Part shown: one piece after another, positions 42,236 to 47,189 of the stretch
Layout: each line of letters opens with the position of its first letter
Position numbering within the stretch: position 1 is the stretch's first letter
NCBI GenBank assembly: GCA_943788055.1
Contig: CALSOU010000006.1
Coordinates: 186,001 to 250,000, forward strand
Length of the DNA: 64,000 nucleotides
Reading direction: 5' to 3'
Source: an uncultured Saprospiraceae bacterium
Lineage (GTDB): Bacteria; Bacteroidota; Bacteroidia; Chitinophagales; Saprospiraceae
Program-made: the position numbers and the translations under genes
Notes under the pieces: model-generated
The model's database searches: none
Seen by the model: the letters and a program-made list of their open reading frames with translations, nothing else
Told to the model about the DNA's origin: nothing

Positions 42236-42961
42236 CTACATATCCCATTTTTCTATTTGATTCCAGCATGCTCTTATATCTTTGGGTAGGTCAGCAGTGA
42301 ACTTCAGCTTTTCTTCTGTTCTAGGATGTACGATTTCTAGAGAGTATGCATGCAACGCTGCTCTCTTCATCAGTGACTCTTCTTGGCTTGAGTGCTTACT
42401 TGAAGTATACTTTTTTTTGAAGCTGCTCAAATAAACTTCCGGGTTCTTATTGTACAAAATGTCACCTAGGATGGGATGTCCTATAGAAGCCATATGCACA
42501 CGAATCTGGTGCATTCGACCAGTTTCAATCAGCACCAAATTTTTGCAGTATCGCTTCGAATTTGCTAAGCTTTTGTAATGAGATATTGCTTTTTTGCCTT
42601 CGTGGTTAATTCGTACTGTTTTTGACCTTGAATCGTGTAGAATCGGTTTATTGATTTCTTCCCAATTTTCCCCGGTATTTCCTTTAGATAGACATATATA
42701 CTCCTTAGTCACTATACGATTTAGAAACTGATGATTGAGAGCCTTATGAGCCGCTTCATTTTTGGCAAGGATAACGATGCCGCTAGTCTCTCTATCTATT
42801 CTATGTATTATAAAAATGTCACTCTCAAGCTGAGTCTCTAACATTTGCTTTAGACTCAAAGGTCTTCCACTTCTTGTAGGAATGACGGTTATGCCACTGG
42901 ACTTATTTACAACAATAATATCCTCATCCTGAAAGATGATTTGGAATTTAGACTTTGCCAT
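42236..42961 (-). CDS. RluA-family pseudouridine synthase
   Basis: The 241-residue enzyme isomerises uridines in rRNA or tRNA. The catalytic motif HRIDRETSG (53-61) holds Asp56. The sequence also has the family's RMHQIRVHMASIGHPILGD and the C-terminal LHAYSLEIVHPRT. It lacks an S4 domain, as in RluA rather than RluC/D. Its ATG lies 14 bp inside the end of the upstream RibF-GT2 gene, so translation is probably coupled. The target nucleotide cannot be told. Confidence 0.9.
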   Translation of the reverse strand: MAKSKFQIIFQDEDIIVVNKSSGITVIPTRSGRPLSLKQMLETQLESDIFIIHRIDRETSGIVILAKNEAAHKALNHQFLNRIVTKEYICLSKGNTGENWEEINKPILHDSRSKTVRINHEGKKAISHYKSLANSKRYCKNLVLIETGRMHQIRVHMASIGHPILGDILYNKNPEVYLSSFKKKYTSSKHSSQEESLMKRAALHAYSLEIVHPRTEEKLKFTADLPKDIRACWNQIEKWDM

Positions 42962-44951
42962 TAAAACTTAGATTTTGAAATGTCTTCTTTCCGAAAATAA
43001 AAAACGACGCAACGATACTTTTGGGATACATTCCACTCATATTACTTGTACCAATTCGGATCTTGTCGATATGTAATTTTAGTTTTTTTCGTTGTTTAAG
43101 TATTTTAAGGAAACGAGGAAAAATATACCAATGCGCTCTAGCAACACTAATCGCGTTTTTAAATTTACCACCAACTAACATTTGGGCGGCAGCCAAACCA
43201 TCTAAGAAGAGACGAATAATGAATTTTAGAAACCAAAATCTCGATTCATCATTTTTTATCAAAGTTGTTAGGTTATTTCTGAAGTTGAGATAGGTTTTGT
43301 TGGGCGACTCGTATGCCAAAGTACCTCCGCCTAGATGAAATACATGTGTTCCTGGAGCTACCATTACTTTGTATCCTGCTCGTTTCATTCGCCAGCATAA
43401 ATCGATTTCTTCTTGGTGAGCAAAAAAATCACTGTCAAGACCATTTAGACTGTCATAAACTGATTTGCGAACTACCATAGTGGCACCACTAGCCCAGAAT
43501 ACTTCTGCAGGTCTATCGTATTGACCTTTGTCCACCTCTAGGTGATCAAAGATTCTACCACGACAGAAAGGATATCCCAAAACATCCATTAAACCTCCCG
43601 CCGCACCAGCGTATTCAAACTTTTCTGGATCTTCGATAGATCTGATTTTTGGAGAAACAGCAGCGATTGTCTCATCTGCCTCCATTAAATCAAGTATCGG
43701 ATCAAGCCAATTAATAGTACATCTAATATCAGAATTCATCAAAACGATGTATTTGTAGTCTAGCTGCCTAAGTGCTTGGTTGTAGCCACCAGCAAAACCA
43801 TAGTTTTCTGTAAATTCTATTATCTTATACTCCGGTTGCCACTCCTTTACATAATTAACTGATTCGTCCATTGATGCATTGTCAATGAAAAGATAGTCAA
43901 TAGGTCGATCCGTGGAATGTAATGTTGATGGAAGATACTTCTCTAGAATTTCTTCGCCATTGTAGTTTAGTATTGCAATTGCGGTGTCTGGATAAGAACG
44001 TTCGTATGAATTTTGCTTAAGTATTTTTCGCGAGTTGATTTCATCTTTTGAAAGCTGTGACTTCAATTCTTCAATACTGTCAAATTTAACATCATCTCGA
44101 ATGTAATCTACAAGCTCAACCCTTATGTCACTGCCATAAATGTCTTGATCGAAGTCAAAAATATGCACCTCGATGGTTTGACGAAATTTATTATGCATCG
44201 TTGGTTTGTTACCGATGTATAACATTCCACCAAATTCTCCTTGCTCAAGAAATACCTTTGCAGCGTATATTCCAGCTATAGGTAGCAGTTTGAATTCATT
44301 ATCAACATCGATATTAGCAGTGTTATATCCGATCTTTTGACCAACCTGCTCCCCGTATACAACCTTACCGGATATCATGAAAGGATAATTCAAATAGTCG
44401 TTTGCAAGCGTAATTTCATTATTCAAGATCGCTTTTCTCACCTTGGTGCTACTTACCGTAATATCTTCAAGATCTTCTTTTTCTATTTCAATAGTTTTGA
44501 AGTTGAATTTCTCTTCGTAGGATTTCAAGAAGTTTAAATCACCTTGTCGGTTGAGCCCGAAACGATGATCGTAGCCAATGACAATGTACGAGGGCTTAAA
44601 TTTTCCGTAAAGAAATTTTTCAATGTATTCTTCTGGATGCTGCTGAGAAAATTCAATCGAAAACGGAACAACAACTACATGATCGACACCGAATTTTTCA
44701 AAGAGCGAAAGTTTCTCGTCCAAGGAGGTTATCAATTGAAGCGAATTATCATCAGGGTAAATTACCTGACGAGGATGCGGGTGGAATGTAATTATGACAC
44801 TCTCGCCTTGGATTTCGGTTGCAAGTGCTTTAATCCTTCTTATGATCTTTTGATGCCCAATATGGACACCATCGAATGAACCTATAGTCAAAACGGACTT
44901 GGTAAACGCTGGTAGGTTGTTTAGATCTTGGTGGACGTGCATGTTTTTCAC
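42948..44951 (-). CDS. ribF: Fusion: riboflavin kinase/FAD synthetase (RibF) + family 2 glycosyltransferase
   Basis: The 667-residue reading frame joins two usually separate proteins. Residues 1-311 are a complete RibF: FAD synthetase motifs TIGSFDGVHIGHQKII (22-37), FHPHPRQV and IGYDHRFG (125-132), and a riboflavin kinase domain with GQKIGYNTANI (204-214) and the catalytic-acid region TIEVHIFDFD. After a 10-residue linker, residues 322-667 form a GT2 enzyme: AIAILNYNG, FIDNASMDES, the DXD-like MNSDI, FWASGATMVVRKS and DLCWRMKRAGYKV, then a hydrophobic C-terminal part. No ATG, GTG or TTG occurs at the junction (about 43985-44020), so the GT is not separately started there. RibF alone accounts for the gene symbol. 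The stop overlaps rluA. Confidence 0.88.
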   Translation of the reverse strand: MKNMHVHQDLNNLPAFTKSVLTIGSFDGVHIGHQKIIRRIKALATEIQGESVIITFHPHPRQVIYPDDNSLQLITSLDEKLSLFEKFGVDHVVVVPFSIEFSQQHPEEYIEKFLYGKFKPSYIVIGYDHRFGLNRQGDLNFLKSYEEKFNFKTIEIEKEDLEDITVSSTKVRKAILNNEITLANDYLNYPFMISGKVVYGEQVGQKIGYNTANIDVDNEFKLLPIAGIYAAKVFLEQGEFGGMLYIGNKPTMHNKFRQTIEVHIFDFDQDIYGSDIRVELVDYIRDDVKFDSIEELKSQLSKDEINSRKILKQNSYERSYPDTAIAILNYNGEEILEKYLPSTLHSTDRPIDYLFIDNASMDESVNYVKEWQPEYKIIEFTENYGFAGGYNQALRQLDYKYIVLMNSDIRCTINWLDPILDLMEADETIAAVSPKIRSIEDPEKFEYAGAAGGLMDVLGYPFCRGRIFDHLEVDKGQYDRPAEVFWASGATMVVRKSVYDSLNGLDSDFFAHQEEIDLCWRMKRAGYKVMVAPGTHVFHLGGGTLAYESPNKTYLNFRNNLTTLIKNDESRFWFLKFIIRLFLDGLAAAQMLVGGKFKNAISVARAHWYIFPRFLKILKQRKKLKLHIDKIRIGTSNMSGMYPKSIVASFFIFGKKTFQNLSFNGKV

Positions 44952-45183: not shown

Positions 45184-45555
45184 TTATTCACTTTCTCGAT
45201 TTACTTCCTCAAAAGAGAATGCTGGCGTACAAATCGAAACATATTCACATTCTTCATCAAAGGGATTTGAATACCGCACTCGATTATTTGCAAGGATTTT
45301 AATCGATTCGCCTGCTTTGAGAATTATTGTTTCATCAGCGATTTCAATTTGCTTTCTGCCTCTGACAAGCATTGTATATTCATCGAATGTTGGACTCTGG
45401 AAAGGCTCTTTCCACCCTGGGGGAGCAACCATGTGAGCAATACTCAAATTCTGATTTTTATCTGTTGCATTTCCAACATGTTCTGCAATGTATTTACCGT
45501 CGTCTGTAGGAACAATAAAGGGTGCATTCTGAAGAACATAGCTAAGTTTTTTCAT
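45184..45555 (-). CDS. Cupin-domain protein
   Basis: The 123-residue single-domain protein has a cupin core with APPGWKEPFQSPTFDEYTMLVRG-type strands (I quote only the framework: Pro-Gly turn, DEYTMLVRGRKQIE and KAGESIKILAN). The usual metal-binding histidines of motif 1 are replaced (WKEPFQSPTFDEY), so metal binding is uncertain. It follows the response regulator gene by 6 nt and is probably co-expressed with the two-component system. The ligand is unknown. Confidence 0.75.
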   Translation of the reverse strand: MKKLSYVLQNAPFIVPTDDGKYIAEHVGNATDKNQNLSIAHMVAPPGWKEPFQSPTFDEYTMLVRGRKQIEIADETIILKAGESIKILANNRVRYSNPFDEECEYVSICTPAFSFEEVNRESE

Positions 45556-45561
45556 AGTATT

Positions 45562-46245
45562 TTATTCGACAAATTTGTATCCAACACCTCTGACAGAGAT
45601 AAAATGAGTAGGTGCTGATGGGGTCTTTTCAAAGTTTTTGCGGAGCATCAAGATAAAATTATCGATGGTGCGAGTTGATGGAATTACGTCGTAACCCCAA
45701 ACCGCTTGAAGAATATCTTTTCTGCTTACAACCTGATTCTTGCGCTCGAGAAATAGTCTGATGAGCATGACTTCCTTCTTGGTCAACTTAAACTTTCCTT
45801 TTGGTCCAGTAGCTTCGTAAGTTGTAAAATTGATATGATTACCATCAAAACGATACTCTTCCATATCGGATTTTAGTTCTTCAATAGACCTTTGAAGTAG
45901 CTTTTGTATCCTTAATAGTAATTCTTCAAGAACGAAGGGCTTAGTAAGATAATCGTCTGCTCCCTTTTTTAAGCCGTTAATTCGATCATCTGCTTCAGAT
46001 CTCGCCGATAGAATGAGAATAGGAATTGTATGGTTTGTCAATCTAATTTGCTCACAAACCTCAATACCATTCATAGAAGGAAGCATAACATCCAAAATTG
46101 CAAGATCAAAACGTTCTGCTTTGAAGGTCTCCAATGCTTTTTTACCGTCGGCAACTGCCACCACTTCATAACCTTCTATTTCTAGATTGATTTTAATCAA
46201 ATCAGAAATACTCTTTTCGTCCTCTACTAGTAATATTCTTATCAT
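45562..46245 (-). CDS. OmpR-family response regulator
   Basis: The 227-residue regulator has a receiver domain with Asp9/Glu8, phospho-acceptor Asp52 (LAILDVMLPSMNG) and the conserved Lys in YLTKPF. The winged-helix DNA-binding domain (about 130-227) shows KLTKKEVMLIRLFLERKN and VWGYDVIPSTRTID with the final VRGVGYKFVE, typical of OmpR/PhoB. Its ATG overlaps the stop of the histidine kinase gene (ATGA). Confidence 0.95.
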   Translation of the reverse strand: MIRILLVEDEKSISDLIKINLEIEGYEVVAVADGKKALETFKAERFDLAILDVMLPSMNGIEVCEQIRLTNHTIPILILSARSEADDRINGLKKGADDYLTKPFVLEELLLRIQKLLQRSIEELKSDMEEYRFDGNHINFTTYEATGPKGKFKLTKKEVMLIRLFLERKNQVVSRKDILQAVWGYDVIPSTRTIDNFILMLRKNFEKTPSAPTHFISVRGVGYKFVE

Positions 46246-47189
46246 GATATATTCATTTCTACTTGAAACACTGAACCGCTAGGTGTGTTGTCTTGAATTG
46301 TAACTTTTCCTTGATTTTTGTCTACTATTTGTTTGACGATGAACAGTCCTAAACCTGTCCCCGTTGATTTCCTGGTTTCTTCGCTTCCAACTCGGTAAAA
46401 ACGCTTAAAAATTGCTTGCTTTTCATTTGGCGCAATCCCAGGGCCTTCATCACTTACCGTCAGTCTAAATATCTTGTCTTCAAGCGAGAGCTTGACTTCG
46501 ACGTGTGATTCACTGTATTTTAAGGCATTTTCAATCAGGTTTTTAGCAATCTTCAAAACACCATTAATGTCTATATCTATTGATCTACCTTGAGTATCTT
46601 CAGTAGTGACGGTGTAGGTGACTCGTCCTTCATCTAGTGTAGCAGATCGTTGATGCTTAATATAGTTTAATGATTCGACTAGAGTAGTCGTGTGTTTTTC
46701 AACATTGTATTTGTGATCAATTGACGTCGCATCAAGGATATTATCTAATTGTTTGTGTAAACGATCAACTTCAGTTATTCCGTTATCTGAAATTATCAGG
46801 TTTTGATTTCTTGAAAGGTCGCGTTTTTTGATTGTTTCTAATGCTAGTTTGATGGATGCCAGAGGAGATTTAAGTTCATGTGTTACAGCTAAAAGGAAGT
46901 TATTCTGTCTTTCCGTATTTTTAAGGTCTCGTTTATAAATAATCCACATGAGTGTGATACCTACAATCAATGCAAGACCAAAGACAAAACCTTCAGCTAT
47001 GATCATGTTCCTTTGGCGATAATGTTCCTCCTCTAAAGTAGTTAGAGCCTCACTTTCTTCAATTCCAGTAATAATATATATGCTTTGCTGCTGATTGTAA
47101 ATGATTTCATTTTTACTGTACAATAGGTAAGTCCACCAACAGAGGGCAGCTAACATATACAGCACAATTACAAAAGGGGCAAACTTCAT
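46242..47189 (-). CDS. Membrane sensor histidine kinase
   Basis: The 315-residue kinase has two membrane segments (about 5-24 and 66-85) enclosing a short periplasmic loop, then a HisKA domain with His104 in VTHELKSPLASIK. The HATPase domain shows N-box NLIENALKYS, G1 DEGPGI and G2 GTGLGLFIV. It lacks a HAMP domain. It is first in an operon with the OmpR regulator and the cupin gene, divergent from the HU/SPOR gene. The signal is unknown. Confidence 0.94.
   Translation of the reverse strand: MKFAPFVIVLYMLAALCWWTYLLYSKNEIIYNQQQSIYIITGIEESEALTTLEEEHYRQRNMIIAEGFVFGLALIVGITLMWIIYKRDLKNTERQNNFLLAVTHELKSPLASIKLALETIKKRDLSRNQNLIISDNGITEVDRLHKQLDNILDATSIDHKYNVEKHTTTLVESLNYIKHQRSATLDEGRVTYTVTTEDTQGRSIDIDINGVLKIAKNLIENALKYSESHVEVKLSLEDKIFRLTVSDEGPGIAPNEKQAIFKRFYRVGSEETRKSTGTGLGLFIVKQIVDKNQGKVTIQDNTPSGSVFQVEMNIS

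Follow-up and report, generated by a model that had tools for sequence, protein, structure and literature searches.

A composite gene of RibF and a family 2 glycosyltransferase, found across the sampled Saprospiraceae

In most of the sampled Saprospiraceae genomes ribF is fused in frame with a gene of a family 2 glycosyltransferase (GT2). The fusion is real, old and family-wide; its parts are ordinary, while their partnership is unusual. We consider it likely that this is a fixed, family-wide composite gene coding for two independently working enzymes and selected for their joint production. The analysis started from the window, a stretch of 64,000 nucleotides from an uncultured Saprospiraceae bacterium with a genome of 3.0 Mb in 13 contigs. 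The locus includes the following features.

42948..44942, minus strand: ribF-GT2 fusion gene (ATG 44942 is the probable start; a longer frame opens with GTG at 44951)
44442..44903, minus strand: FMN adenylyltransferase (FAD_syn) domain, residues 17-170 of the 667-residue frame (Pfam PF06574, E 1.1e-47; invariant residues)
44019..44393, minus strand: riboflavin kinase domain, residues 187-311 (Pfam PF01687, E 4.4e-38; invariant residues; sole copy in the genome)
43989..44018, minus strand: linker, residues 312-321 (no ATG, GTG or TTG; no long A run; pLDDT below 50 at residues 316-318)
42951..43988, minus strand: family 2 glycosyltransferase domain, residues 322-667 (Pfam PF00535, E 1.6e-19; invariant residues; fold similar to GalNAc-T2 and GlfT2)
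43173..43235, minus strand: hydrophobic helix in the GT2 domain, residues 573-593 (helix of the AlphaFold2 model; hydropathy)
42236..42961, minus strand: rluA-type pseudouridine synthase, the next gene (14 bp overlap with the fusion)

A single open frame of 667 codons runs on the minus strand from the GTG at 44951 to the stop at 42948. The true start is probably the ATG at 44942, giving 664 residues, since Met4 is shared by at least 90% of the fused proteins in an alignment of 67 (the window protein and 66 fused relatives, 42-66% identical to it). The initial annotation described a complete RibF and a complete GT2 enzyme with about ten residues between them and no start codon at the junction. 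The frame and the Pfam domains bear out the former, and ATG, GTG and TTG are all absent from the junction codons of the window. The compact operon that it proposed is likewise supported, as the rluA-type gene overlaps the fusion on the same strand. A small cupin gene (45184-45555) sits before the fusion, and upstream of it lies a response regulator and sensor kinase pair, recognised by eye (45562-47189, minus strand).

The NCBIfam ribF model TIGR00083 matches the window protein with 255 bits (cut-off 184), while three PRK05627 sub-models stay under their own cut-offs and one is above. Glycos_transf_2 covers residues 325-443 (70.9 bits, cut-off 23.3), and none of the NCBIfam glycosyltransferase models reached its cut-off with this protein. 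The residues invariant in the 67 aligned fused proteins are G24, D27, G28, H30, H129, S168 and R172 in the FAD_syn domain, T211, A212, N213 and E261 in the flavokinase, and D357, N406, D408, E514, E515, D517 and H539 in GT2. The HxGH-type, SST..R, TAN and catalytic Glu motifs of RibF are invariant or nearly so. We take these motifs, as well as the DXD-like and ED acidic motifs of GT2, to have their usual catalytic roles in the fused proteins. At one position, N210, the window protein deviates from the Pro found in at least 90% of the alignment.

A search of 30 fused genomes for a second RibF found none: flavokinase matches number exactly one per genome and always fall within the long frame (30/30). 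The fused copy, the only flavokinase match in these genomes, should therefore supply FMN. For the same reason, loss of the kinase or adenylyltransferase activity in the fusion seems unlikely, as far as this can be judged from sequence.

In the AlphaFold2 model (mean pLDDT 88.7, pTM 0.71) the window protein consists of two well-formed domains with a weak spot at residues 316-318; such a pTM leaves the predicted relative arrangement of the domains loose. The folds nearest to the model are FAD synthetases for the N-terminal half and GalNAc-T2 and GlfT2 for the C-terminal one. RibF of the window resembles known RibF proteins (Corynebacterium ammoniagenes FAD synthetase, PDB 2x0k; Thermotoga maritima TM379) in whole length, fold and motifs, but differs from them in ending in a fused GT2 and sitting before rluA. 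The GT2 part shares its fold and acidic motifs with GT-A family 2 glycosyltransferases such as GalNAc-T2 and mycobacterial GlfT2. The solved relatives are distant (17-20% identity) and lack the fusion with RibF, while free-standing Bacteroidota orthologues in the class are mostly about 40-52% identical. The best 19-residue hydropathy of the GT2 part (1.54 at residue 575) is short of a clear transmembrane helix, and the modelled helix 573-593 may possibly provide a peripheral membrane contact.

Among 199 Saprospiraceae genomes, with doubtful junctions inspected singly, ribF and GT2 are fused in 145 (at least six of these one-frame fusions are cut by a contig end), adjacent but separate in 35, apart in 3, and undecided or without a match in 16. 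These are the arrangements that the initial annotation had proposed to count in relatives. In the 35 adjacent cases the genes share a strand and are divided by a stop or a frame change. The three genomes with genes apart are G124 (about 1.4 kb between ribF and GT2 on one strand, the sole such readable genome of the family), G081 (about 80 kb, opposite strands) and G101 (two contigs, neither gene being near the relevant contig end). Three genomes are undecided: G143, G165, G197 (GT2 at contig end). Thirteen of the 199 have no match at E 1e-50. Altogether, the link is retained in 181 of the 183 readable genomes, i.e., in the 145 fused, the 35 adjacent and the one with a 1.4 kb gap. In G016, G077, G186 and G030, all at least 91% complete, neither ribF nor GT2 is matched at E 1e-50; this joint absence fits one missing stretch carrying both.

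Both genomes of the same genus with a whole readable locus have the fusion, at 67% and 65% identity, while a third congener, 51% complete, has a ribF fragment only. The initial annotation had allowed for a recent loss of the stop codon between neighbouring genes. Such a loss, a sequencing error or an assembly chimera confined to the window genome is refuted by the same open frame in these two congeners and in the 145 family genomes; nothing was found in favour of this explanation, and we assign it a negligible probability. The recurrence of the frame in 145 genomes also rules out an open frame by chance.

Outside the family no fusion was encountered. In an order-level sample of 298 genomes, every one of the 78 matches spanning both domains belongs to Saprospiraceae; of the remaining 220 genomes, 9 are listed as members of the family and 211, by listing order, as members of other families. 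In a class-level sample of 395 genomes, five spanning matches (E 1e-98) were found, all in the family. In both samples a fused gene with its alignment broken in two pieces would not have been counted as spanning. No ribF was found in the flanks (up to 6 kb) of 75 other GT2 loci (L037-L112 without L047). Long frames containing GT2 in four genomes of other families proved spurious: in L240 and L241 the frame is a GC-rich one opposite a RecQ-like gene, and in L242 and L243 it comes from a distinct GWxTD-type gene lying upstream. Thus, as far as sampled, the fusion appears to be a trait of Saprospiraceae. Within the family, genera g17, g109 and g128 have both fused and split members; the split state of G148, a member of g17, may be due to a frameshift.

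The neighbours of both genes point to a relocation. In the same order, truB directly precedes ribF in five of ten outgroup ribF loci, and a uppP-like gene is found further upstream in six of ten. (L204, a locus of another family with the two genes about 10 kb apart, was used as an outgroup only.) In eight of eight fused genomes truB is present with nothing ribF-like in the stretch covered behind it, and in six of the eight the DUF3098-like and uppP-like genes before truB keep their order (names of truB neighbours other than TruB itself were assigned by eye). The window genome also has truB elsewhere, without ribF. In this genome truB is followed by an ABC transporter gene that by eye resembles gldA (L248:2090-3011, contig C6, about 35 kb before the window). 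An apparent frame change, either a real mutation or an assembly error, breaks it into two frames; the relative L251 has one frame there.

GT2 was matched in 61 of 61 sampled members of the class (membership by listing order) and in 125 of 186 genomes from other classes of the phylum at E 1e-50. Among 85 loci outside the family, the gene just upstream of GT2 is lipid A acyltransferase-like in 20, a GWxTD-type gene (its representative scored under the Pfam cut-off) is found upstream in 13, and the next downstream gene is OmpA-like, as named by eye, in 31. Three representatives were searched against Pfam. Examples of free-standing GT2 genes beside a lipid A acyltransferase-like or GWxTD-type gene in other families are L110 and L053. 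The free-standing GT2 can be considered a core enzyme and a candidate for the synthesis of the LPS core or O-glycan core. Since truB lacks ribF behind it in fused genomes and GT2 has other neighbours outside the family, it appears from gene order that ribF moved to GT2 or that both moved together.

We propose the following course of events. In the family ancestor, ribF would have left its usual place behind truB and landed directly before the gene of GT2, a partner near-universal in the class. The two genes would then have fused, once or several times. Translation would give one chain, presumably a stable protein with both activities, whose N-terminal half is responsible for FMN and FAD synthesis. 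The C-terminal half would use an activated sugar donor, with a membrane-bound glycolipid of the envelope as the probable acceptor; we infer this envelope role from the fold and from the neighbours of GT2 in other families. The halves would act independently on a flexible tether. As relatives use adjacent, often overlapping, separate genes, the selected trait would most likely be joint production of two housekeeping enzymes.

The phylogeny of the locus is consistent with this emphasis on joint production. On a tree of 116 rows, built by a quick method with 35 of its 112 inner branches weak, the fused label requires 12 changes, six of them forced by well-supported branches; with weak forks collapsed, the lower bound is 11. 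(Loci L148, L149, L155, L142, L032, L135 and L152 were dropped because their genomes already contribute a copy of the locus; the tree does not contain L151, and L183, identical to L035 in both aligned domains, was kept in the tree but not in later counts.) Polarised fits permit a single fusion followed by 12 fissions, 15 fusions with no fission at all, or mixed histories of 12 changes. Either fusion or fission may thus have come first. Among 36 split loci, a possible GT2 start occurs before the ribF stop ends in 15, within 60 nt in 14 and further off in 4, while 3 have no ATG, GTG or TTG. Because fusion and adjacency exchange in this way, joint production seems more important than a covalent bond between the halves. 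Shared expression is the probable benefit, given some 12 switches on the tree and the neighbouring genes of most non-fused relatives.

The functional fusion that the initial annotation offered as its other option can be upheld as regards the fusion, while catalytic cooperation is disfavoured by the same changes of state and by the adjacency kept in most non-fused relatives. Functional coupling, e.g., FAD synthesis tethered at the membrane where GT2 works or sugar transfer tied to flavin supply, could explain the nearly complete retention of the link, which might be more than shared expression alone needs. It would also agree with the hydrophobic helix of the GT2 part and with the looser association of rluA, which is the next downstream gene in 54 of 68 fused loci but in 14 of 36 split loci (the latter with short flanks). 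On the other hand, the fused and separate states switch about 12 times, the linker varies from 4 to 20 residues across fused proteins, and no substrate or pathway common to RibF and GT2 is known. We regard coupling as unlikely and retain joint production of independent enzymes as the preferred reading.

Two proteins might still arise from the composite gene if GT2 were translated from an internal start or if the chain were cleaved, for instance by proteolysis of the linker. At least one in-frame ATG, GTG or TTG is located near the junction in 42 of 68 fused loci. In the other 26, the interval between GT2 and a point 15 codons ahead of the RibF end is free of start codons, and there is none at the window junction either. 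At the fused junctions of L015 and L017 a G-rich stretch is followed by an A9 run whose end forms an in-frame ATG, a possible internal GT2 start. We consider this explanation of the gene rather doubtful, slightly more so than coupling, and continue to favour a single chain.

The most interesting lead comes from relatives and concerns runs of A at the joint. Runs of at least nine A are present at 22 of 169 fused junctions (17 genera), while 9.1 such junctions are expected from synonymous resampling with each gene's own codon usage; the 169 fused and 33 split junctions used here are all the loci read, not an even sample, and L030, L167 and L171 were skipped for their long gaps. In the two domains of the fused loci the same resampling predicts 14.4 such runs against 2 observed. 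For lengths 5, 6, 7, 8, 9 and 10, the runs number 55, 13, 11, 4, 10 and 13 at the fused junctions (9.3 kb) and 941, 367, 87, 23, 2 and 0 in the domains (325 kb). Flanking regions have nine runs of at least nine A in 321 kb, and the 120 nt before ribF have one in 23 kb. In 13 of 26 loci, fused and split, the run ends 10-14 nt before GT2.

Four split junctions have an A10 run, and in 4/4 one additional A opens the whole fusion (in L151, only to the contig end); in two of them, L178 and L179, GT2 has no ATG, GTG or TTG. Conversely, shifting the frame at the run of fused loci brings up a stop, either in the linker or no more than 35 codons into GT2. Such a pattern would be expected if slippage at these sites supplied free RibF besides the fusion, and programmed slippage is a possibility in these relatives. 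On the A9-A10 run of the linker, either RNA polymerase or the ribosome would slip, and one gene would give both RibF and RibF-GT2. In part of the family slippage would set the ratio of these products, and the fused and split states would be phases of a dual-output gene, with lineages like that of the window fixed in the fused phase. We treat both the slippage and this dual-output role as tentative possibilities, less likely than joint production though more credible than coupling.

The excess over resampling, the scarcity of runs in the domains and flanks, and the opening of the fusion by one extra A all favour slippage. A10 is also rare in some of the 17 searched genomes that carry it at the junction (6 runs in the 3.8 Mb assembly G011, 14 in the 8.1 Mb G026), but other genomes have more of them, up to 85 in G018. 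The window junction has A5 at most, and 147 of the 169 fused junctions likewise lack a long run. The end of the GT2 gene with the next 60 nt, a stretch where three runs of at least nine A occur in 12 kb, also weakens the argument. Relaxed selection in a lysine-rich linker explains part of the excess: lysine triplets are written as AAAAAAAAA in 8 of 16 cases at the junction vs 0 of 27 in the domains, while the junction share of AAA (251 of 330 Lys codons) alone predicts about 44% of the triplets to be A9. Moreover, the rows are related, and the A-run label (12 such rows) needs at least 8 changes on the tree, little under the mean of 11.5 in shuffles, whose minimum is also 8. The runs may also be relics of GT2 start sites, as L015 and L017 would suggest, and homopolymer assembly errors are possible in split loci.

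In PMC1088944, on transcriptional slippage at A runs, avoidance of long A and T runs is reported for the coding DNA of several bacterial genomes, tested by codon resampling like that used here. The runs of Saprospiraceae differ in being concentrated at one inter-domain junction. Vitamin-pathway fusions described in the consulted part of PMC4921024 are likewise composite genes with a riboflavin enzyme; they join RibD halves or RibF halves within the riboflavin pathway, or involve an N-glycosidase. No fusion of RibF with a glycosyltransferase was found in the literature as far as consulted, although an earlier listing in the fusion-partner tables of PMC4921024 is possible; the main text of PMC3711429 does not contain the word "riboflavin". 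According to the consulted part of a review on Bacteroidota O-glycosylation (PMC12871550), most glycosyltransferases are uncharacterised and the glycan core is made by machinery encoded elsewhere. The fused GT2 might be a candidate for this core machinery.

For annotators, the fusion is a warning that the protein may be labelled by one half only. Through the fusion, a GT2 of wide conservation is also linked with a gene amenable to study. If the A runs do act as slippage sites, the family would offer a case from cells in which slippage of the polymerase determines how much one-enzyme and two-enzyme product is made. Overall, the joining of a housekeeping cofactor enzyme with an unrelated envelope-type enzyme in most members of Saprospiraceae constitutes a natural test of composite-gene persistence.
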